NCBI RefSeq assembly: GCF_016904885.1
Contig: NZ_JADWYI010000001.1
Span: 8,427,224 to 8,491,223, forward strand
DNA length: 64,000 bases
Source: Archangium primigenium
Lineage (GTDB): Bacteria; Myxococcota; Myxococcia; Myxococcales; Myxococcaceae
Direction of reading: 5' to 3'
The notes beneath the pieces were generated by a model that worked only from the letters and a program-made list of their open reading frames with translations, ran no database searches and was not told the origin of the DNA. Positions 5,023 through 18,739 of the stretch are shown in pieces. Position 1 is the stretch's first letter, and each line of letters starts with the position of its first letter. The translations under genes were made by a program, and so were the position numbers.

Positions 5023-7127
5023 CTCGCCGGGGCGTCCGGCGCCCCCGCCGGGGGCAGCGCGGGGGGAGCATCCTGGCGGCGCCGACGGGCCCGCCAGGCG
5101 AGCACGCCCACCCACCCGAGCCACACCGCCAGGGACACGAGGCTCACGGTGAGCCCCACCCCGAAGGTGCGGGGCGCGAAGGAGGTGCGCAGCTCATGCG
5201 TGCCCGCGGGCAGCTCGAGCGCCCGCAGTCCGCCGGCCACATCCAGCAGGGGTTGCCGCGCGCCCCCATCCACCGACACCCGCCAGCCCGGGAAGTAGAT
5301 CTCGTTGAACACCACCCGGCTCGGCTCGGCGAGCACCAGGCGGTAGTCCACGCGGTTGGGCTCGTAGCGCGTGATCTCGAAGTCCACGGGCTTGAGGGCG
5401 GCCTGGAACGCCGCGGCGTTCTCGGGCTGGGCGCCGGGCGGCAGCGCCACCACACGCGCGCCCGTGCGCAGCCAGTCCGTGAAGCCCCGCTTCTCCAGCT
5501 CCACCCAGCGGCCCAGGCGCATCGGGTTGTAGTCCGAGAGCATGAAGCGCTTCTCCACGAAGCCCCACTGCGACTGCTCGGACATGGGGTTGCCGTCGTA
5601 CTCCCGGGGCACGTTGACGCCCTCCAGGGTGAAGCGCCGCTGGTGCCGCGCCGTCATGAGGGCGTAGGCCTCGGGCTTGATGGGGTGCGCGATGGCGAAG
5701 GTGTTGGACAGCACGCCCGTGCCCAGCTCGAGCGAGAGCAGCACCGCCAGGGACAGGCTCGTCGTGAACGCGGCCGGGCGCTCCAGCACGAGCAGGGCGC
5801 AGCCGACGAAGAGCAGCTCCGCCGAGGTGTAGAGGAGCACCGTCTCGTTGTAGGTCTCCGCGGGCATCAGGTCCTTGAGGAACACCAGGCCCACGAGCAG
5901 CAGCCCGAGCAGCACGACACAGGTGCGGCGCGCGAGCCGGAAGGCCTCGGCGTCCCCCGAGCGCAAGAGCTGCGCGCCCCCGCCCGCGAGCGTCACCGCC
6001 CCGAGCACCGCCAGCGCCCGGCTGTCGCTGGCCGGAAAGCGCGAGAGGTTGAAGGCGGGGATGCTCAGGTGCAGGAAGGCGCGGCCGAAGAACACCGCGC
6101 CGCAGGCCATGAGGAAGGCCCCCGAGGTGAGCACCACCAGCGGCCCCACGAAGCGACTGGGGCTGCGACGCACCGCCACCAGCGCCAGCACCAGCGCCAG
6201 CACGCCGAAGTAGAGCCCGCGCATGGAGATGTCCGTCGACGAGCCCGGCAGGGGCGAGACGGTCATGAACTGGAAGAGCACCCCCCAGAGGTCCTTGAAG
6301 GTGATGTTGCCGTGCTGCGCGAGCACCTGCTCGGCCGGCATGGGCTTGCCGCGGGTGAACTCCCCGCTGTGCAGGCCGATGGGCAGCCAGTGCACGGCCG
6401 CCAGGCCCACGCCCAGCGCCCACGCGGCCACCACGCTCCCCCACAGGCGCAGCCGCTCCCGCGCCGGCTCGCCCCACCGCGCGTGCAGCTCGAAGAGCGT
6501 GTACGCCCCCACCCACAGCAGCGTCATGAGGATGATGGTGGGGTAGCCCGAGGTGATGAGGAAGTAGATGAAGAAGGCCAGCAGCGGCAGGGCCCAGCGC
6601 TTGCCCCGGCGCACCGCCAGGACGCTCGTCCAGAACAGCCACGGCATGAGCACGTAGGTGTTCGTCGTCGTCATGTGCTCGAGGTTGCCGTAGACGGCGC
6701 TCGTCAGGGAGAAGGCCAATCCCGACACCACGCCCGCCGCGCGGCCGCGCCACAGCTCCACGGACAGCAGGTAGGCCCCTACCCCGCCCATGAAGAGCAT
6801 CGCCAGGGTGTGCAGTTGCACCGAGCGCTGCGTGTAGCCGAAGAGCAGCGACACGAGCAGCGTGACGGGCGAGTAGAGCTGGCTCTGGGGATTGATGAAG
6901 AAGGGACTGCCAGCGCCCACGTAGGGCACCCACAGCGGGAACTTGCCCGCCTGGAAGGTGTCCCCGATGTACACCTGCCAGGGATAGCACTGGCTCATGA
7001 AGTCCCAGGGGATGAGCCCGAAGGGCGTGCCATCCGGCGCCTGGAAGATGAGCCGCGCGAAGGCGGCCACGAACACGACGGCCATGCCCAGCAGGGCCAC
7101 GGCGTGACGGACAAACGGTTTCGACAT
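5016..7127 (-). CDS. YfhO-family polytopic membrane protein (probable GT-C glycosyltransferase)
   Basis: A 703-residue protein with about a dozen hydrophobic segments and a soluble beta-rich C-terminal part. The first extracytoplasmic loop (IPWDFMSQCYPW, SPFFINPQSQLYSP) and the C-terminal NEIYFPGWRVSVDGG motif are typical of the YfhO family. Family members look like GT-C enzymes that use polyprenyl-phosphate sugars on the outer face of the membrane. The GT2 gene ends only 13 bp upstream on the same strand. That pairing mirrors the CsbB-YfhO pair of Bacillus, where GT2 makes the lipid-linked sugar and YfhO transfers it. Acceptor and sugar here are unknown. A short C-terminal Arg/Pro/Ala tail ends inside a shared inverted repeat. 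Confidence 0.8.
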   Translation of the reverse strand: MSKPFVRHAVALLGMAVVFVAAFARLIFQAPDGTPFGLIPWDFMSQCYPWQVYIGDTFQAGKFPLWVPYVGAGSPFFINPQSQLYSPVTLLVSLLFGYTQRSVQLHTLAMLFMGGVGAYLLSVELWRGRAAGVVSGLAFSLTSAVYGNLEHMTTTNTYVLMPWLFWTSVLAVRRGKRWALPLLAFFIYFLITSGYPTIILMTLLWVGAYTLFELHARWGEPARERLRLWGSVVAAWALGVGLAAVHWLPIGLHSGEFTRGKPMPAEQVLAQHGNITFKDLWGVLFQFMTVSPLPGSSTDISMRGLYFGVLALVLALVAVRRSPSRFVGPLVVLTSGAFLMACGAVFFGRAFLHLSIPAFNLSRFPASDSRALAVLGAVTLAGGGAQLLRSGDAEAFRLARRTCVVLLGLLLVGLVFLKDLMPAETYNETVLLYTSAELLFVGCALLVLERPAAFTTSLSLAVLLSLELGTGVLSNTFAIAHPIKPEAYALMTARHQRRFTLEGVNVPREYDGNPMSEQSQWGFVEKRFMLSDYNPMRLGRWVELEKRGFTDWLRTGARVVALPPGAQPENAAAFQAALKPVDFEITRYEPNRVDYRLVLAEPSRVVFNEIYFPGWRVSVDGGARQPLLDVAGGLRALELPAGTHELRTSFAPRTFGVGLTVSLVSLAVWLGWVGVLAWRARRRRQDAPPALPPAGAPDAPASA

Positions 7128-7140
7128 GGGTTTTCCGGGC

Positions 7141-7896
7141 CTACGGCACGCGCTTGAGGGCCTGCAGCCGCAGGGAAATCTTCATCAGGTCCAGGCCCAT
7201 CTTCGGCACGTCCCAGAACGTCAGCCGGGACTGGGCGATGTCCTGCCAGGTCTGCAGCGGCACCTCCACGAAGTCCTGGGGCGACAGGCCGGGCAGTCCC
7301 GGACGGTCCACCATCAGGCGCCCGATGAGCTCCACGTCGAAGGCCCACCGGCTGGAGAAGGGCGTGGCGAGCACGGCGCGCAGCCGCTCCGAGCGGCGGA
7401 AGGCCTTGGCGCCACACTGGGTGTCGTAGACCCGGAGCGAGAGGATGAGCGAGGCGAAGGTGGCGAACACGCGGCCCATGTAGTGGCGCTTCGCGCTGCG
7501 CTCGATGTGCGTGCCCAACAGGGCCACGCGCGCGCCCATGACGACCGCCACGTCCCGCGCCTCGAGGACCTCCAACAGGCGCGCCATCTCCTCGGGCGGC
7601 GTCGCCAGGTCCGCGTCCAGGTAGGCGATGCGCTCGGCCCCCGCGTCATAGGCCGCCAGCATGCCCGCGCGCACCGCCTCCGCCTTGCCGCCGTTCCTCG
7701 GCTGGACGAGCACGCGCGCCTGACCCGGAAGACGCGCGCACAGGTCCGAGAGGACCGCCTGGGTGTCATCGGTGGAGCCGTCGTCCACGAAAATCAGATG
7801 CACGTTCGGGTACTGACGGAACTGCTCGAAGCCCGTCAACGAGAGCCTGCGCGCCTCGTTGTAACAGGGAACCACCACCACGGATGAAGCCTTCAC
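7141..7896 (-). CDS. Glycosyltransferase family 2 (polyprenyl-phosphate hexosyltransferase type)
   Basis: A 251-residue GT-A enzyme. VVVVPCYNEARRL opens the fold, VDDGSTDDT is the nucleotide-binding strand, YLDADLATPPEE carries the metal-binding DxD-like motif, and VYDTQCGAKAFRRS is the signature of the dolichyl/polyprenyl-phosphate glucosyltransferase group. There is no C-terminal membrane pair, unlike bacterial CsbB or GtrB, so it resembles the soluble catalytic part of eukaryotic ALG5/DPM1. It starts with GTG at 7896, preceded by GGGAGGG. The YfhO gene follows after 13 bp, so the two are probably co-transcribed and functionally paired. Confidence 0.85.
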   Translation of the reverse strand: MKASSVVVVPCYNEARRLSLTGFEQFRQYPNVHLIFVDDGSTDDTQAVLSDLCARLPGQARVLVQPRNGGKAEAVRAGMLAAYDAGAERIAYLDADLATPPEEMARLLEVLEARDVAVVMGARVALLGTHIERSAKRHYMGRVFATFASLILSLRVYDTQCGAKAFRRSERLRAVLATPFSSRWAFDVELIGRLMVDRPGLPGLSPQDFVEVPLQTWQDIAQSRLTFWDVPKMGLDLMKISLRLQALKRVP

Positions 7897-7985
7897 GGCG
7901 CGAGCCCTCCCACTGAGCCATGTCCAGGGAGGCCCCTCCTAGTACGGCATGGCGCGCCGAGACAAGCCGGGCCCCGCGGGCGGAC

Positions 7986-9533
7986 TCAGAACAGCTTCCA
8001 CCACTTCTTCTTGGGCGCCTCGGGAGACGCGGGGGTCGGCTCCGTCGGAGGGGCAGGAGGGGGGGTGGGCTCGGGCGCCGGGGCCGCGGTGGCGGCCGGC
8101 GGAGGCGTCGGCGGCGCGGGAGGCGGACGGCGGCCATAGCGCCGCTCGAGCTCCCGGGCCTTGAGCTCGAGCGCCCGGCCCTTCAGCGGATCCACCATGG
8201 CCACGAAGTGGGCGTAGCCCACCGCGGAGGAGAGCACGTCCGCGCCCGCGCCCCAGCGCTTGCCCTCGGGGCCCGTCTTGTCCAGTTGGTGCAGCAGGGC
8301 GCGGAAGCGCTTGAGGGTCTGGCGATCCACGCCGGGCTTGTCGTTCACGACGACGCCGGTCACCTCCTGCTGGCGACCCCGGCGCAGCACCCGGGTCTTG
8401 TCCGGGTGGGGCGTGAAGTCCTCCTGCTTCACGAGCCAGCGCACCCGCCGCAGCAGCGTGCCGGGATCATGGTGCCCGGGACCGGTGGCGGAGAACGTCA
8501 GGTCATCCGCGTAGCGGGTGTAGACGAAGCCGAGCGCGCGCGCGGTGCCCGTGAGCCGCGCGTCCAACCGGCGGCACAGCAGGTTGGTGATCGCGGGCGA
8601 GCTGGGCGCGCCCTGCGGCAGCCGCCGCGTGCCCTGGGAGACGTAGTAGCGCCGTCCATCCAGCTCCACCTCGTCCACGTCGGGCTCGGTGCACAGCAGC
8701 GCCAGCACCGTGGCGGTGGCCTCGCTGTAGCCCAGGTGCATGAAGGCGAACTTGACGCGCCGGTAGCCCACCGAGGGGAAGAAGTCCTTCAGGTCCAGGT
8801 TCACCACCACGGCGGCGCCCACGTGGGGCCGGGCGTTGGTGACGATGGAGCGTCCGGGGCGGAAGCCATGGGCGGCCTCGTGCACCGGCACCTTCTCCAG
8901 CACCTGCGTCAGCACCCAGGCCTGCGCCGCCTTGAGCCGAGGCAGGGGCGCGGAGATGAGCCGCGTGCCCCCCGTCTTCTTGGGCAGGAGGAAGCGCACG
9001 TAGTGGTGCGTGGTGGACGCGGTGCGCGTGAAGCACAGGGCGCGCAGTTGGCCCACGCGCAACCCCAGGGCCTCGGCGAGCGCCTCGGGGGACGTGAGCA
9101 CCGGCAGGCCCAGCCGGGTGAGCCGCGCCTCGTCCGTCTCACGCGCGCTCAGTCCGCCAGACACGCCCCGGCCGAGGAAGAGCAGCTCCTTGCCCTTGCG
9201 CTCGCGCCACGCCGCCGCCTTGGCCACGCGCTCGCGCTCGCGCCGCTCCCGCGTCTCCTGCTGCTTGCGCTTGCTCTCCACGAGCCGCCGCTTGCGCAGC
9301 TCGCGCTTCATCGCCTCCAGGTTGCCCAGCCGGTGTTGCTCGGTGGTCAGGGCCCGGAGCTGGCCCATCAGGTCATTGCGCCGGTGGATGACCTCCGCGG
9401 GATCTCCCGGCTGCTCGGTGCGGGCCGGCCAGAAGCCCAGACGCACCATGTCCTCGAGGATGACTTCCTCGCGCGAGGTGGCGCGAATGCGGTCATACAG
9501 CTCTTGTCGCGTACGGGGAGGTTGGGAGGACAT
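7986..9533 (-). CDS. Retron reverse transcriptase (Mx162/Sa163 type)
   Basis: Copies part of the msr-msd RNA into branched multicopy single-stranded DNA. From ATG 9533 it has 515 residues. Residues 75-112 are a strongly basic, helical stretch. The RT domain (about 150-450) shows the retron-specific NARPH (NAxxH, 233-237), LPQGAPSSP, the catalytic TRYADDLTFS (YADD 341-344) and the retron VTG motif (391-393). After about residue 468 comes a Pro/Ala-rich tail ending in KKKWWKLF. Length and motifs match my memory of myxobacterial Mx162/Sa163 retron RTs. A GTG at 9539 is an alternative start. The msr-msd RNA lies directly upstream, and the last base of its a2 repeat is 17 bases before the ATG. Confidence 0.95.
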   Translation of the reverse strand: MSSQPPRTRQELYDRIRATSREEVILEDMVRLGFWPARTEQPGDPAEVIHRRNDLMGQLRALTTEQHRLGNLEAMKRELRKRRLVESKRKQQETRERRERERVAKAAAWRERKGKELLFLGRGVSGGLSARETDEARLTRLGLPVLTSPEALAEALGLRVGQLRALCFTRTASTTHHYVRFLLPKKTGGTRLISAPLPRLKAAQAWVLTQVLEKVPVHEAAHGFRPGRSIVTNARPHVGAAVVVNLDLKDFFPSVGYRRVKFAFMHLGYSEATATVLALLCTEPDVDEVELDGRRYYVSQGTRRLPQGAPSSPAITNLLCRRLDARLTGTARALGFVYTRYADDLTFSATGPGHHDPGTLLRRVRWLVKQEDFTPHPDKTRVLRRGRQQEVTGVVVNDKPGVDRQTLKRFRALLHQLDKTGPEGKRWGAGADVLSSAVGYAHFVAMVDPLKGRALELKARELERRYGRRPPPAPPTPPPAATAAPAPEPTPPPAPPTEPTPASPEAPKKKWWKLF

Positions 9534-9550
9534 GGGCACTCACGCGCAAG

Positions 9551-9575
9551 GGAAGGGTTCGTCCACGCGGCGGTC
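9551..9575 (-). repeat. Retron a2 inverted repeat
   Basis: Complement of a1. Both differences lie next to each other in the middle (positions 12-13 of the repeat). It marks the 3' end of the structured RNA, 17 bases before the RT start codon. Confidence 0.92.
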
Positions 9576-9622
9576 CGGGAGCACCTTCGAACCGCTCTCG
9601 GGACTGGACCGTCTCAACTCCA

Positions 9623-9696
9623 GCGGGTCCCCCTCCCTGTGGCGCGCGGAACCGACGCGGTTGACACCGCCGCCGCTACAGGGAGGGAGGACCCGC
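9623..9696 (-). repeat. msd long stem-loop
   Basis: Arms at 9696-9678 and 9640-9623 pair almost perfectly (a polypyrimidine/polypurine stem with one extra base on one side). The 37-base loop contains a small AACCG-CGT-CGGTT hairpin. This would be the double-stranded part of the msDNA. Confidence 0.85.
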
Positions 9697-9781
9697 ACAG
9701 TGAAGAGCGGGCCAGTGATGCATGACAGGCCATGAGGCATGGACGGCGAAACACCGCCCGGATTGCAAGGAACAGCCCCCT

Positions 9782-9806
9782 GACCGCCGCGTGCGCGAAC
9801 CCTTCC
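9782..9806 (-). repeat. Retron a1 inverted repeat
   Basis: Minus strand GGAAGGGTTCG, two variable bases, then ACGCGGCGGTC-type sequence. It pairs with a2 at 9551-9575, 23 of 25 positions matching. It marks the 5' end of the msr-msd transcript. Confidence 0.92.
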
Positions 9807-9811
9807 GTACG

Positions 9812-11458
9812 TCATGAGCGAGCCGCCCGTGCATTCCCGAGCCGCAACGCGAGCAGGTGCTCGCAGGGGCCCCGGAACAGCTTGTTCTGCTGGAAGAAAT
9901 TGCACGTGCACTCGCCGAAAACCATACGCTGATCCGCGTCCAGTCGCAAAGAGGGACGAAGCACGTGCTTGCCTTCGCGCACCGTGCCCTCCAGCGTCAG
10001 CGAGCCGTCCGTGGCCGAGGGCTGGGCGCGCACCGTCACCGACCCCGCGTCCACGAAGCGCGTGGCGCTCGCCTCGCGCTCGTTGGAGAAGCGCAGCGCC
10101 TCCACGGGCAGGGGCTCGCGGCTCAACTCGCGCGCCCGGTACACGCCCTTGTTCAAGTCCCAGATGGCGCGTCCCGCCTGCGTCCACGCCGACAGCGCGC
10201 CGAGCACCGTGCCCCGCTCCAGCCCCAGCCGCGCGGCCAGGGCCTCCGGGGTGGCCAGCCACGTCTCCTTGAGCGCCCCGAAGACCCGGTCGCGCGTGAG
10301 CGCGTCCACCTGGCCCCGCGGCGCCATCAGGTCGAAGTTGCCCGCGGTGGACCAGTCATTGGCCGTCCACCCGGACAGGCCCAGGGTGAAGGACAGGTCG
10401 CCCAGGTCCGCCACGTAGAAGGACGGCAGGCCCGTGCCCAGCAGGTGCACGGTGAAGCGCCGCGCCACGGGGATGAGCCGCTCGAGCACGCCCAGGCGCC
10501 GTCGGCCCCACACGCGGATGTCGTGCGTGCCGGGGCCCTCGTACACCGAGCGGGGACACTCCACCCGGGTGCCCCACGGCTCCAGCACGAGCGTCACCGG
10601 CCGGCCCGGCGTGAGCAGGTAGCGCAGCGCGCGCGGCCCCTTCTTCTCCTTGTGGCGCTTGAGCACGAAGAGCAGGTTGTGCACGTCCATGGGGTGCAGG
10701 CTGAAGCGCACCGCGGGCAGCGCCATGGCCGAGTTGACCTGGAGGAAGCCCCGCACCCACGAGTCCGGCAGGTCGATCTTCACTTCCTTGTAGGCCGCGT
10801 CCCCGCCCGTCTGGGTGGTGAAGCCGCTCGGGTCCACCGTGAAGCGCGTCTGCTTGTAGGAGCGGATCTTCTGGAACTCGTCGTACAGCGGCGAGGAGTA
10901 GTCCACGTTGGTGGTGCCGCAGGAGAACTCGCCCACGTCCTGGAACACCTCGTAGCTGGCGCCCAGCCGCCCGTAGCTGGACTCGTCCTGGCTGAAGCAC
11001 TCGAAGAAGGCCTCGTCCGGGTGCACGGTGATGACCGGATCCAACACGAACCACAGGTCCCGGTTCTTCTCGTACAGGTATTGGAAGTAGCGCTGGCGGG
11101 CCGCGTAGAACGGCTGCATGCGCGAGGCGCTCTCCTTCTCCAGCGCGTGCAGCTCCTCGCGCAGGACCTTGACCCGGCCGGCCACCTCGCGGCGCTGCCC
11201 GGCGATGGCCTCCAGGTCCACCTGCTCCTGCTGGGCGGCCCACGCCTTGTAGGCCGTCTTGTCCTTGGGCTTGAAGCGCAGGTCGGACACCACCACGTCG
11301 TGCAACGCGGAGATGGCCTCGCGGAAGGCCACGTTCTGGCGCAGCTGGCCCGAGAAGTAGGTGGGCGGCCGGGTGACGTCCGGGGAGAAGGACAGCTCCG
11401 TGCGATCCCCCTGGTTGTTCACCGCGGTGCTGCCCCGGTACGCGTAATCAAATTGCAC
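9812..11458 (-). CDS. WHSWIM protein: winged helix plus C-terminal SWIM zinc finger, retron accessory
   Basis: A 548-residue protein of unknown biochemical role, encoded immediately before the msr-msd RNA. The C-terminus carries a SWIM zinc finger: C517-T-C519, then C532-E-H534 (CxC-x12-CxH). Ahead of it, about residues 400-460 (ALKETWLATPEALAARLGL onwards) read like a winged helix, so nucleic-acid binding is likely. The large N-terminal part has a helical segment near 90-130 and beta-rich stretches I do not recognise. I recall a WHSWIM protein with an ARM/HEAT partner as the accessory pair of the retron class containing Mx162/Sa163 (type XIII in published classifications). It overlaps the WGR-HEAT gene by 11 bases, so the two are translationally linked. 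Confidence 0.85.
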   Translation of the reverse strand: MQFDYAYRGSTAVNNQGDRTELSFSPDVTRPPTYFSGQLRQNVAFREAISALHDVVVSDLRFKPKDKTAYKAWAAQQEQVDLEAIAGQRREVAGRVKVLREELHALEKESASRMQPFYAARQRYFQYLYEKNRDLWFVLDPVITVHPDEAFFECFSQDESSYGRLGASYEVFQDVGEFSCGTTNVDYSSPLYDEFQKIRSYKQTRFTVDPSGFTTQTGGDAAYKEVKIDLPDSWVRGFLQVNSAMALPAVRFSLHPMDVHNLLFVLKRHKEKKGPRALRYLLTPGRPVTLVLEPWGTRVECPRSVYEGPGTHDIRVWGRRRLGVLERLIPVARRFTVHLLGTGLPSFYVADLGDLSFTLGLSGWTANDWSTAGNFDLMAPRGQVDALTRDRVFGALKETWLATPEALAARLGLERGTVLGALSAWTQAGRAIWDLNKGVYRARELSREPLPVEALRFSNEREASATRFVDAGSVTVRAQPSATDGSLTLEGTVREGKHVLRPSLRLDADQRMVFGECTCNFFQQNKLFRGPCEHLLALRLGNARAARS

Positions 11459-14538: not shown

Positions 14539-15963
14539 TCAGCCCACCAGCTTCCGGATGTCGCCCTGCGCCCGGTAGAAGCCGCCGCGGCCCGACTCGC
14601 GCACCGCCGCCACCACGTAGCGCGCGCCCGCCTGGCGGATGTCCTTGGGGAACTGCACGTGCCAGTCCGGACGGAAGCCGGGAGAGAGCACCCGCACGCG
14701 CACCTGGGCCCCGTCCTGGTAGCACTCCACGAGCACGCCCGAGCCCACCTCGCGGATGGTCTCCACCGTGGCCGAGGGCACGGCCGCCACCGGCTTGGGC
14801 GCCTGGACGGTGCGGGCCGTGGGCACCGAGCCGGACTGCGCGGACTGGATGGCCTTCTCGCTCGCGTCGATGCAGGCGAACGAGCCGTCCGTGGTCACCA
14901 GGTAGAGCCGGTCCTGGAAGAACTGCATGGAGTAGGCCGAGCCACACCCGGTGGCCAGCTTCCACAGCCGCTCGCCCTTGTGGTTGAAGCAGTAGACGCT
15001 GGACATGTTGTCGCCCGCGAAGACGTAGCGGCCGTCGTCCACCGCGGCGCAGGAGAACACCGAGGCGTCGCACTTCATGACGGGCCCCGGCTCCCCCTTC
15101 TTGGAGAAGCGGTGCACCACGCCCCGGTTGGTGCAGGCGTAGAGCGAGGACTCCTCCTGCCAGCCGAACTGCACGCCGCCCTGGGTGGCCTGGTGCCAGA
15201 TCTCCCGCCCGTCCTCCCAGTCGTACATGGTCAGGCCGCGCGAGTGGCCGTGGTACATGCCCAGCTCATCGCAGCGCACCATCCACCCGCAGTCGCCGGT
15301 GCTCTGCTTCATCCACTGCGACTCGTCCTCGTGGTTGACGGCGGTGAGCTGGCCGCGACGGTCCGCCACGCCGAGCACCCCGTCCTTGATGTCCAGCCAG
15401 AAGATGTCCACGTCCTCGGAGATGGAGTACGCCACCCGCGCCACCTTGCCGCCCAGGTCGTAGACGTTGCCGTCGTCACACCCGGCGTAGAGCCACTGGT
15501 CATCGGCGACGATGCACTTGACGCCCTCGGGCAGGCGGTGCTGGGACAGGCTGTTGCCCTCGAGGTCCATCGAGTAGATGGAGCCGCCCTGGTTGCCCAC
15601 CCAGCAGCGCTGGTCATCCACGAAGATGCCGAAGGCCTGGTCGCCGGACTTGAACTTCCAGAGCAGCGGGGCCTGGTTCGCGGTGGACTGACCGCTGGAG
15701 ATCTCCCGGCGGGTGACGGTGCGCTTCTTGCGCTCGCCCATGACGGCGGGGGCATAGCCCTTGCGCGTCTTCTCGCGCAGCTTCTTCTGGGCCTCGGCGA
15801 GCGCCTTCTCGGGAGAGGCGAGCTCGGACACCTGGGTCTGGCCCTTGTCCCCGATGCGGCCGTAGCGCACGGTGAGCGTGCTGCCCGCGACCGTCACCTC
15901 GTAGAACTTGTGCGCGCTGCTGCCCTCTTCCGACAGCTCCAGGTACGTCCGTTCCTCGGCCAT
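14539..15963 (-). CDS. WGR domain plus beta-propeller protein at head of the retron operon
   Basis: A 474-residue protein. Residues about 5-80 are a WGR domain (YEVTVAGSTLTVRYGRIG), clearly related to that of the next gene. Residues about 105-400 are repeated blocks of WD40/PQQ-type beta-propeller blades (WVGNQGGSIYSMDLEG, LYAGCDDGNVYDLGGK, YVFAGDNMSSVYCFNHKGE). The C-terminal about 70 residues are a separate small beta domain. ATG at 15963 is chosen because GGGGAGA lies 7 bases upstream and the WGR domain starts at once; a longer in-frame start at 16071 would overlap the divergent aminopeptidase gene. The one-base gap to the WGR-HEAT gene makes it part of the retron operon. Its role is unknown; a sensor or scaffold is a guess. 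Confidence 0.82.
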   Translation of the reverse strand: MAEERTYLELSEEGSSAHKFYEVTVAGSTLTVRYGRIGDKGQTQVSELASPEKALAEAQKKLREKTRKGYAPAVMGERKKRTVTRREISSGQSTANQAPLLWKFKSGDQAFGIFVDDQRCWVGNQGGSIYSMDLEGNSLSQHRLPEGVKCIVADDQWLYAGCDDGNVYDLGGKVARVAYSISEDVDIFWLDIKDGVLGVADRRGQLTAVNHEDESQWMKQSTGDCGWMVRCDELGMYHGHSRGLTMYDWEDGREIWHQATQGGVQFGWQEESSLYACTNRGVVHRFSKKGEPGPVMKCDASVFSCAAVDDGRYVFAGDNMSSVYCFNHKGERLWKLATGCGSAYSMQFFQDRLYLVTTDGSFACIDASEKAIQSAQSGSVPTARTVQAPKPVAAVPSATVETIREVGSGVLVECYQDGAQVRVRVLSPGFRPDWHVQFPKDIRQAGARYVVAAVRESGRGGFYRAQGDIRKLVG

Positions 15964-16063
15964 TCGCAGGTCTCCCCACCGACGCAGGACCCCCAGAGTA
16001 GCCCGAGCGGCTGACAGTCGGGAAGACAACATCGGTGGTCTCCAATGAATTAGACCCCGATGC

Positions 16064-18739
16064 ATGCCCATGACCTTCCGGCGCGTCTCGAGTGTCCTGC
16101 TCGTCCTCCTGAGCGCCTGTGGTGCGCGTCAGGCGCGACCCGAGCCCGAAGCCTCGCTCGCGCCCGTGTCGCCCTCCCTGCGCCTGCCCACCCAGGTCCG
16201 GCCCACCGCCTACACCGCCGCGCTCACCCTGGACCCGGCCCAGCCCACCTTCCAGGGGGTGATCGACATCGACCTGGAGGTGCGCGAGGCCACCTCGACC
16301 CTCTGGCTCCAGGGCCGTGCGCTCACGGTGACGGAGGCGGTGCTGACCGTGGGGGACCAGCCCGTGCGCGTCACGCCCACAAAGGGCACCGGGGACTTCC
16401 TCGGCTTCGTGTCCGAACAGCCGCTCGCCCCCGGGCACGCGCACTTGCGCCTGATCTATCAAGGACAGCTCTCCGAGCGCGAGACCTCGGGGGCCTTCCG
16501 CGCCCAGGACGACGGTGTCTGGTATGCCTATACCCAGTTCCAGCCGCTGGGGGCCCGGCGGGTCTTCCCCTGCTTCGACGAGCCGGGCTTCAAGGTGCCC
16601 TGGCAGCTCACCTTCCATGTGCCCGCGGGCAGCGTGGCCGTCACCAACACCCCGCTCCTCGCCGAGGAGCAGCGCGCCGACGGCGGCACCACCTTCCGCT
16701 TCGCGCGCACCCCGCCCTTGCCCAGCTACCTCCTCGCCTTCGGCGTGGGCCCCTTCGACTTCGTCGAGGCACGGCCCTCGGGCCAGAAGGCCGTGCGCAC
16801 CCGCGTCCTCCTGCCCCGGGGCCGCGCACCCGAGGGCGCCTATGCCGCCCGCATCACCCCGGAGATCCTCGGCCCGTTGGAGGATTACTTCGGCCAGCCC
16901 TACCCGTACGAGAAGCTGGACGTGCTCGCCGTGCCCAACCTGGGCAGTGCCATGGAGCACCCGGGGCTGGTGACGTTCGACGCGGCGTTCATGCTCGCCC
17001 GGCCCGAGGCCTACACGCTCTGGCGGCAGCGCGCCGTCTACAGCACCCAGGTGCACGAGCTCGCGCACCAGTGGTTCGGCGACCTGGTCACCCTGGCGTG
17101 GTGGGACGACCTGTGGCTCAACGAGGCCTTCGCCACCTGGGCCGAGCCGCGCATGCTCGAGAGCGCCCAACCCACGTGGGACGTGCCCCTGCGGCGGGTG
17201 CTCGACCGCTCGTCGGCGCTCGACCGGGACAGCCTGATGACGGCGCGCCGCATCCGCCAGCCCATCCAGAGCGAGAGCGACATCGTCAACGCCTTCGACG
17301 GCATCACCTACAACAAGGGCGCGGCGGTGCTGAGCATGACCGAGCGCTGGCTGGGCCGGGAGGTCTTCCAGCGGGGCGTGCGCCGCTACTTGTCCGCCCA
17401 CGCCCAGGCAAACGCCACCGCGGAGGACTTCCTCGCGGCCCTGTCCGCCGAGGCGGGCCAGGACGTGTCGGGCGTGCTCGGCTCCTTCCTGGACCAGCCG
17501 GGCGCCCCGCTCGTCACCGCGCGGCTGGACTGCTCGGCGCGGGTGCCCACGGTGAGGTTGTCGCAGCGCCGCTTCCTGCCCCTGGGCTCCACGGGCGACA
17601 CGGCGCTGTCGTGGAAGGTGCCGCTGTGCGTGCGCCACGGCGACGGCCAGACGGCGGGCCAGGCCTGCACGGTGCTCGCGGGCACCACGGGCGAGCTGCC
17701 CCTGACCGGGGCGAAGGGCTGTCCCACGTGGATGCTGCCCAACGCGGAGGGCGCGGGCTACTACCGCACCGCGATGGAGGCGCGCGCGCTCGGCGCACTG
17801 CTGACCACGGAGCGCCGCCACCTCACCCGGCCCGAGCGTGTGGCCCTCCTCGGAGATGTCCAGGCCCTGGCGAAGGCGGGCGTCATGCCCGCGGCGGAGG
17901 CGCTCGCCCTGCTGCCGGGCCTGGCGGGAGAAACGGATCGTTACGTGTTCGAGGCGGCCACGGACCTGCTGTCCCTGATGCGGCCCGAGCTGCTCACCGA
18001 GGCCGGCCGCGCCCACCGCGAGCGTTTCCTGCGCGAGACCTATGGGGCCCGGGCCCGGGCGCTGGGCTTTACCCCGCGCGCCGGGGAGGACGAGGACACC
18101 CGACTGCTGCGACCCGCGCTCTTGCGCCTCGCGGGGCGGGAAGGCGGAGAGCCCGCACTAGTGGCCGAGGCCCGCGCGCTCGCCGAGCGCTGGTTGAGCG
18201 ACCGCCAGGCCCTCGTGCCGGATCTCGTGGACTCCACCCTGGCCTTGGCCTCGGCCCATGGCGACGCGGCCCTGCACACGAAGTTGATGACGGCGCTGCG
18301 CGCGGAGAAGGAGCGCGGCAGGCGCCAGCAGCTCATCTGGGCACTCGGCTTCTTCCGCGACCCGAACCTGGTGAAGAAGAACCTGGCGCTGTTGCTGGAG
18401 CCCGATGTGGACCCGCGTGAGCTGACCATCCTGCTCATGATGAGCGGCAACCAATCGCGGCACCCCGAGGTGGCCGAGGCCTTCACCCAGGCGCACTACG
18501 ACGCACTGGCCGCGCGCCTGCCCGAGGAGGACGAGGCGCGCCTGGCGCGGGTGGCCTCCAGCCACTGCGATGCCGCCCACCGCCAGGGCACCGCGGCCTT
18601 CTTCACCGAGCGTATGGCCCGCGCCCAGGGAGGAGCCCGGATGCTCGCCCAGGTGTTGGAGTCCATCGACCTGTGCATCGCCTTCAAGGCCGCCCAGGGC
18701 GCGAGCATCGAGTCCTTCCTCGCCGCGCCCCCTCCCTGA
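16064..18739 (+). CDS. M1-family zinc aminopeptidase, lipoprotein
   Basis: An 891-residue metallopeptidase that removes N-terminal residues from peptides. It has the M1 zinc site H331-E-L-A-H335 with Glu354 after the usual 18-residue spacing, and the substrate-binding GxMEN loop in the variant form GSAMEHPG. A lipoprotein signal is present (VLLVLLSAC, lipidated Cys near 19), so it should sit in the envelope, which suits a predatory or scavenging lifestyle. ERAP1-like C-terminal helices fill residues about 560-890. Two starts are possible, ATG 16064 and 16070, both just before the signal. It is divergent from the retron operon with a 100-bp shared upstream region. Confidence 0.92.
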   Translation: MPMTFRRVSSVLLVLLSACGARQARPEPEASLAPVSPSLRLPTQVRPTAYTAALTLDPAQPTFQGVIDIDLEVREATSTLWLQGRALTVTEAVLTVGDQPVRVTPTKGTGDFLGFVSEQPLAPGHAHLRLIYQGQLSERETSGAFRAQDDGVWYAYTQFQPLGARRVFPCFDEPGFKVPWQLTFHVPAGSVAVTNTPLLAEEQRADGGTTFRFARTPPLPSYLLAFGVGPFDFVEARPSGQKAVRTRVLLPRGRAPEGAYAARITPEILGPLEDYFGQPYPYEKLDVLAVPNLGSAMEHPGLVTFDAAFMLARPEAYTLWRQRAVYSTQVHELAHQWFGDLVTLAWWDDLWLNEAFATWAEPRMLESAQPTWDVPLRRVLDRSSALDRDSLMTARRIRQPIQSESDIVNAFDGITYNKGAAVLSMTERWLGREVFQRGVRRYLSAHAQANATAEDFLAALSAEAGQDVSGVLGSFLDQPGAPLVTARLDCSARVPTVRLSQRRFLPLGSTGDTALSWKVPLCVRHGDGQTAGQACTVLAGTTGELPLTGAKGCPTWMLPNAEGAGYYRTAMEARALGALLTTERRHLTRPERVALLGDVQALAKAGVMPAAEALALLPGLAGETDRYVFEAATDLLSLMRPELLTEAGRAHRERFLRETYGARARALGFTPRAGEDEDTRLLRPALLRLAGREGGEPALVAEARALAERWLSDRQALVPDLVDSTLALASAHGDAALHTKLMTALRAEKERGRRQQLIWALGFFRDPNLVKKNLALLLEPDVDPRELTILLMMSGNQSRHPEVAEAFTQAHYDALAARLPEEDEARLARVASSHCDAAHRQGTAAFFTERMARAQGGARMLAQVLESIDLCIAFKAAQGASIESFLAAPPP

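Follow-up and report, generated by a model that had tools for sequence, protein, structure and literature searches.

The locus studied here raises the question of whether the RNA encoded between the accessory genes and a reverse transcriptase (RT) gene of Archangium primigenium is the template (msr-msd) of a retron and, if so, how it is expressed from a position immediately behind another gene and in what the encoded proteins may be involved. The analyzed DNA, called the window below, is a stretch of 64,000 nt (forward strand of contig NZ_JADWYI010000001.1, positions 8,427,224–8,491,223, assembly GCF_016904885.1); coordinates are window positions unless a relative is named. A Type XIII retron comprising this RNA, the RT, a clamp-like SWIM protein and WGR partners is very probably the best explanation of the locus.

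Gene order, class and boundaries of the locus

The elements of the locus lie on the minus strand in the order WGR-propeller gene, WGR-HEAT gene, SWIM gene, RNA and RT gene (Table 1), and the SWIM and WGR-HEAT genes overlap or abut in an operon-like manner. Three products match PADLOC profiles: RT_XIII (E 7.4e-181), SWIM_XIII (E 1.4e-232) and WGR_XIII, matched by the WGR-HEAT protein with E 0. RT_XIII is the best RT profile, followed by RT_other (7.4e-95), and the RT frame also matches RVT_1. The motifs NAxxH, VTG and YADD, which are diagnostic of retron-type RTs, are present in the window RT and in 80/80 relatives of at least 400 aa (the short fragment L014 was left out). The ATG at 9533, kept in most relatives, is a likelier start of this gene than the GTG at 9539 given by the ORF finder. 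Only one match to this RT was found in the 9.5 Mb genome.

Table 1. Positions of the retron components and of their predicted elements in the window.
Feature	Position	Strand	Details and basis
WGR-beta-propeller protein, recurrent fourth gene	14539..16029 (start uncertain; open frame to 16071)	-	domain profile, homology block, recurrence
WGR_XIII (WGR-HEAT), WGR domain + HEAT repeats, 1029 aa	11448..14537	-	profile matches
SWIM_XIII partner protein, 548 aa, C-end SWIM zinc finger	9812..11458	-	PADLOC and domain profiles
SWIM residues 34–370, predicted PCNA-like sliding-clamp fold	10349..11359	-	AlphaFold2 model and fold searches
Candidate -35 element TTGCGA	9944..9949	-	within SWIM codons; TTG505 rare and invariant in 17/17 orthologues
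Candidate -10 element TATGGT	9921..9926	-	within SWIM codons; CGT512 rare and invariant in 17/17; 17-base spacer
Retron RNA msr-msd	9806–9551	-	25-base a1/a2 arms; 17 bases 5' of RT ATG
a1 arm	9782..9806	-	25 bases; pairing resumes at 9780–9775 and 9770–9767
Inferred priming (branch) G	9766	-	in CCUUGC (9770–9765), adjoining CCUU/AAGG helix
msr hairpin GGGCGG..CCGUCC	9741..9759	-	two-sided changes in 5/8 pairs (31 sequences)
msd hairpin	9623..9696 (stem 9696–9678 with 9640–9623)	-	two-sided changes in 16/17 main-stem pairs
a2 arm	9551..9575	-	25 bases; inner extensions 9577–9582 and 9584–9587
Type XIII retron RT, 515 aa when started at the ATG	7986..9533	-	RT_XIII profile, RVT_1, motifs
RT C-terminal tail PKKKWWKLF after proline-rich linker	7989..8015	-	sequence comparison

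By these profiles the locus is assigned to the Type XIII retrons, and an anti-phage role would come with the class. The PADLOC model of this type combines RT_XIII and SWIM_XIII with WGR_XIII or HEAT-ARM_XIII. All three profiles match extremely well here, in the order WGR-HEAT, SWIM, RNA and RT, while the locus differs from the model in its additional WGR-propeller gene, in the RNA that abuts the SWIM gene and in a candidate promoter within the latter. Retrons were reportedly classified by Mestre et al. in 2020. The literature searched yielded no experiment on Type XIII retrons; in one paper the type only appears in a listing for a Variovorax strain.

A scan of GTDB genomes revealed 257 RT loci, of which the best 80 were taken for comparison. 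The WGR-propeller gene, for which no PADLOC model match was found, recurs in nine of these 80 (e.g., L010, L013, L034 and L049) and is located upstream of the WGR-HEAT gene, in the WGR-HEAT/SWIM gap, in the SWIM/RT gap, or behind the RT gene. Because it lies inside the homology block described below and recurs at varied positions, a functional link can be inferred, and the gene likely encodes a fourth component. In the fold search with the WGR-HEAT protein, the matches listed were all HEAT-repeat proteins of a generic kind and had low TM-scores, and we derive no function from them.

To the loci L003–L007 and L117 the window is similar at the DNA level (76–83%) from position 7985 to ~16,020, and the similarity stops on both sides (24 kb of the window were compared). 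This block, interrupted by a gap in the RT linker, comprises the four genes and the RNA only; in L004 an additional stretch separates the two WGR genes. An M1 peptidase gene (16064–18739) adjoins the retron, and its orthologues (67–68%) were found in three genomes of the same genus, where RT_XIII matches are weak (best E 1.8e-9) or missing. In genome G034 (region L116) the similarity to the window begins only at 16163, i.e., the retron block is absent beside its M1 peptidase. Since the peptidase gene is kept in same-genus genomes and the block is missing beside it in G034, the retron represents a patchy insertion. RT_XIII matches of at least 600 bits occur in 12 of 96 genomes of the bacterial family, including that of A. 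primigenium, and in one of four genomes of the genus. It should be mentioned that a 2.8 Mb plasmid of Methylobacterium bullatum (NZ_LR743510.1) also contains a complete locus of the Type XIII-like kind, RNA included (L002, 7995–8101), and that the plasmid record has no annotation in this place.

Structure and conservation of the retron RNA

The first-pass annotation of this DNA had placed an msr-msd between accessory genes and RT, with 25-base a1/a2 repeats matching at 23 of 25 positions, a long msd hairpin and a start 5 bases after a coding gene. Each of these points held. The arms form 11 + 12 pairs flanking a 2x2 internal loop, exact to the base; the long msd hairpin is present; the SWIM stop codon ends 5 bases before the RNA; and the msr-msd identity agrees with the retron motifs of the RT, the PADLOC profiles, the conservation of the RNA next to RT genes in several phyla and strong covariation. 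The a1/a2 stem is prolonged inwards by GGGGGC/GCUCCC and then by CCUU/AAGG. An independent helix search returned exactly the interval 9551–9806 with a score of 66.3, whereas the best of 100 dinucleotide shuffles reached 33.9. Folding of the segment 9540–9812, which the annotation had proposed as a check, gave a minimum free energy of -166.4 kcal/mol (z = -8.2), and 0/200 shuffles were as low. The polypyrimidine/polypurine character ascribed to the msd stem was retained in part: the tip half is biased in this way, but the same positions change freely by compensation in 31 relatives, so that the structure is kept and the base bias is not. We therefore reject the idea of a conserved polypurine duplex in the msd.

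To describe the RNA in relatives, we used 71 sequences that contain a SWIM gene at most 700 bases upstream of the RT gene, namely the window, 67 sequences drawn from the best 80 loci together with plasmid locus L002, and a further three loci from myxobacteria. A long-range helix exceeded the shuffled versions of the same sequence in 65 of them (10 shuffles each, 100 for the window); in the remaining six (L033, L036, L043, L070, L077 and L078) the search did not rise above shuffles. In L025 the helix found initially was not a1/a2, and a constrained search later gave the a1/a2 pairing. Alignments were prepared of 31 full RNAs (A2) and of 29 cores (A1), selected for an evident helix together with a motif resembling CCUUGC, near-duplicates being dropped, and owing to this selection weaker cases are absent from both. 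Two-sided changes were revealed in 35 of the 43 pairs of A2 (282 cells vs. 86 on average after shuffling), with a covariation score of 0.549 vs. at most 0.139 for slid structures; these figures are tilted in favour of the tested structure because it was derived from the same alignment. Among 12 close relatives, 96.3% of cells pair.

The covariance-model search proposed in the first-pass annotation gave a divided answer. Rfam produced no match in the window at the gathering threshold, and relaxing the cut-off to E 10 added nothing but implausible matches, of microRNA type among others, while our own model R1, built from A1 with the window included, scores the window RNA at 102 bits. As Rfam has no model of this RNA, its negative result cannot refute the retron reading. 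R1 was run on 65 sources and matched 43 of them upstream of the RT gene at E 2.4e-9 or better; besides the window it finds 42 other sources, which were not used in building it. All positives belong to the 47 Type XIII-like sources (43/47), the RT relatives L011, L012, L014 and L054 being missed, and none to the 18 more distant myxobacterial RT loci (L095–L112), where only short matches of at most 18.5 bits and no full-length hit were found. There was no match in L113–L115 or L118, and L117 was positive. In the 9.5 Mb genome of A. primigenium R1 matches once.

Could the hairpin be a mere by-product of GC-rich sequence, or a terminator or attenuator? GC-rich DNA folds easily and Rfam returned nothing, as this explanation would have it; against it stand the 200 shuffles, none of which folds as well, the covariation of the pairs, the occurrence of the RNA beside the RT in many loci and at a single place in its own genome, and the fact that no terminator-like site was called there. 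We give it practically no credence. The RNA is real, and the bacterial retron for which it is the template belongs to a class already known.

CAGC shortly after a1 is reported for Mx162-type retrons in PMC6868368. One locus of the same bacterial family, L113, has a1/a2 arms with CAGC in this place, and on account of this motif and its layout we call it Mx162-like (Mx162/Sa163 type). Its RT is ~48% identical in the core, and its partners match SWIM_XIII and HEAT-ARM_XIII. In contrast to the window locus, it contains CAGC instead of CCUUGC, its RNA is missed by R1 and its RT has no tryptophan tail. Because L113 matches RT_XIII, SWIM_XIII and HEAT-ARM_XIII, the same set of genes may be present in the classical myxobacterial retrons; homology of the Mx162-like msr-msd to the window RNA was not detected with R1, given its results for L095–L112, L113–L115 and L118.

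According to PMC6868368, the priming G of known retrons is either part of the inner end of the stem or follows directly after it, and AGC is the usual priming context. The G of CCUUGC is invariant in 29/29 cores and fits the stem-end rule as given there, which makes G9766 the candidate priming G. The base before it is U in most cores and A in L018, and thus the context differs from the usual AGC. In this reading the RNA folds through its a1/a2 arms. With G9766 as primer, the RT encoded directly behind the RNA would reverse-transcribe the msd in the direction of the hairpin, starting at 9588 and reaching the msd foot near 9705–9718. The product would be a branched RNA-DNA molecule with ~115–130 nt of DNA.

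In four loci (L008, L009, L047 and L048) at least two tandem retron RNAs precede a single RT gene. They are located at 1465 and 1797 in L008, at 7465 and 7728 in L009 and at 7243 and 7759 in L048; in L047 copies were found at 5379, 6166 and, weakly, 5834, and the first copies have no clear helix. As most of the tandem copies carry their own a1/a2 arms, one RT may copy two templates.

A candidate promoter inside the SWIM gene

Considering its start directly behind a gene, the first-pass annotation had reasoned that the RNA must be cut from, or embedded in, a long mRNA unless an internal promoter lies in the SWIM gene. The sequence comparison favours the internal promoter, and excision from a long messenger as the sole route is weakened. 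The candidate -35 and -10 elements predict a transcript start near 9914, ~108 bases upstream of a1. Among 17 SWIM orthologues with 405 shared codon columns, TTG505 and CGT512 are the only codons that are both rare (below 12% use) and invariant, and together they create TTGCGR-N17-TATKGT in 17/17 sequences, which represent fewer than 17 independent lineages because near-identical pairs are among them. Both codons are also invariant in 10 representatives. The control with the RT gene revealed an invariant rare codon in 0/495 columns. In a version with six sequences the SWIM gene gains one further invariant rare codon (TTT3) and the WGR-HEAT gene has one (CGT1027); in the SWIM genes of five Variovorax sequences the same test singled out one codon (AGG562), to which we attach no meaning. 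Synonymous conservation averaged over windows of 20 codons has no dip at the candidate promoter, and a consensus promoter scan at 9/12 found nothing.

In this myxobacterial clade the first base of a1 occupies one of the positions +1 to +8 behind the SWIM stop; in other lineages it mostly lies 12–150 bases behind it. Among 62 loci outside the clade, an element TTGN3-N16-18-TAN3T starting 25–50 bases before a1 was found in 20. When the last 60 bases were shuffled 200 times, 0.8 loci on average and never more than 4 had such an element; the independent events are fewer than 20, since 14 of these loci come from Methylobacterium-like or Massilia-like relatives.

The alternative is that this clade lacks a separate promoter for the RNA, which is instead cut from a long WGR-HEAT-SWIM-RT messenger, the TTG and CGT codons being kept, for example, for translation or RNA structure. 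The close spacing of a1 to the SWIM stop, the operon-like arrangement of the SWIM and WGR-HEAT genes and the lack of a strong sigma-70 consensus would all suit such a messenger. We nevertheless regard this route as unlikely, given the two rare codons invariant at an exact 17-base spacing, the lack of such codons in the RT control and the promoter-like elements directly before a1 in other lineages. Thus, the favoured reading is that the RNA has its own candidate promoter, lying inside the SWIM gene in this clade, and it would account for an RNA abutting a gene. The RNA and the RT gene are probably transcribed from this promoter in the late SWIM codons and, in addition, by read-through from the accessory genes.

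The predicted SWIM fold, the RT tail and the proposed complex

The AlphaFold2 model of the SWIM protein, made from 45 sequences, has a mean pLDDT of 77.7 and a pTM of 0.75. In Foldseek, the 50 PDB matches listed are only PCNA clamps or PCNA complexes (best E 3e-7). Their superpositions are loose (rmsd mostly 7–11), which would not be surprising in a fold of two domains that carries an insertion. VIA-align, applied to the SWIM model only, gave a Z of 15.9 over 220 residues (rmsd 3.0), spanning the whole PCNA chain, where a best Z of 7–8 is typical of this comparison for models without a clear match. Viral clamps and phage DnaN-like proteins also match the model. Sequence support for a clamp was found neither among the Pfam matches listed for 45 members nor among PDB sequences. 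In comparison with PCNA and beta sliding clamps, residues 34–370 are thus alike in predicted fold over the whole PCNA chain, while the protein differs in its identity of ~10%, a helical insertion and the added SWIM part. The SWIM protein is predicted to have a PCNA-like clamp fold, and a shared fold does not establish function. This prediction is the unexpected part of the locus; none of the publications found that name both a retron and a sliding clamp deals with a retron clamp, as far as their titles and abstract openings go.

The C-terminal ends of the RTs fall into different types. A transmembrane-like segment was revealed by a hydropathy cut-off within the last 130 residues in 45 of 81 RT frames, eight of which, from Bradyrhizobium, also end in RWWK. 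Among the other 36, a W(W)-[KDEM]-hydrophobic peptide terminates 24 (23 by pattern, and L082), with acidic examples among these tryptophan tails (WWDVL, WWEVI). The end of L081 is basic, four frames could not be judged (fragment L014, and L050, L064 and L071 cut by contig ends), and seven RTs, all cyanobacterial (L011, L012, L015, L017, L026, L027 and L029), have neither tail type. In L011 and L012 neither SWIM nor RNA was found, and in L015 and L017 the SWIM gene is ~5 kb away. Membrane anchoring and clamp docking are rival readings of the tail.

The proteins may accordingly be viewed in different ways. It can be hypothesized, tentatively and at rather less than even odds, that Type XIII retrons are clamp-coupled reverse-transcription defences, in which the SWIM protein would form a PCNA-like ring, the RT or its msDNA would be held on this ring or mimic a primed DNA end, the WGR proteins would read DNA ends, and the complex would sense phage replication through the replication clamp or by imitating it. 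Alternatively, the likeness of the SWIM protein to a clamp goes no further than its fold, and its role is that of a simple DNA-binding effector or nuclease-like toxin, with the RT tail as a membrane anchor and the complex at the membrane, a reading to which we give nearly an even chance: the missing clamp match by sequence and the transmembrane-like segments of more than half of the RT frames speak for it, while the superposition over the whole PCNA chain, the exclusive presence of PCNA among the 50 Foldseek matches listed and the acidic tryptophan tails, poorly suited to a membrane anchor, speak against it. For the Type XIII retron as a whole, the RT and its msDNA most likely join the clamp-like SWIM protein, WGR-HEAT and WGR-propeller in what may be a DNA-sensing anti-phage complex.

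The retron type itself is already known; new are the covariation-supported RNA family, the in-codon promoter candidate, the fourth gene and the predicted clamp-like partner. As an example of a Type XIII retron the locus is clean and testable, and it supplies an RNA family missing from Rfam. It also offers a structural lead, a predicted PCNA-like clamp within a bacterial defence locus, by which the question of what Type XIII retrons sense becomes directly testable.
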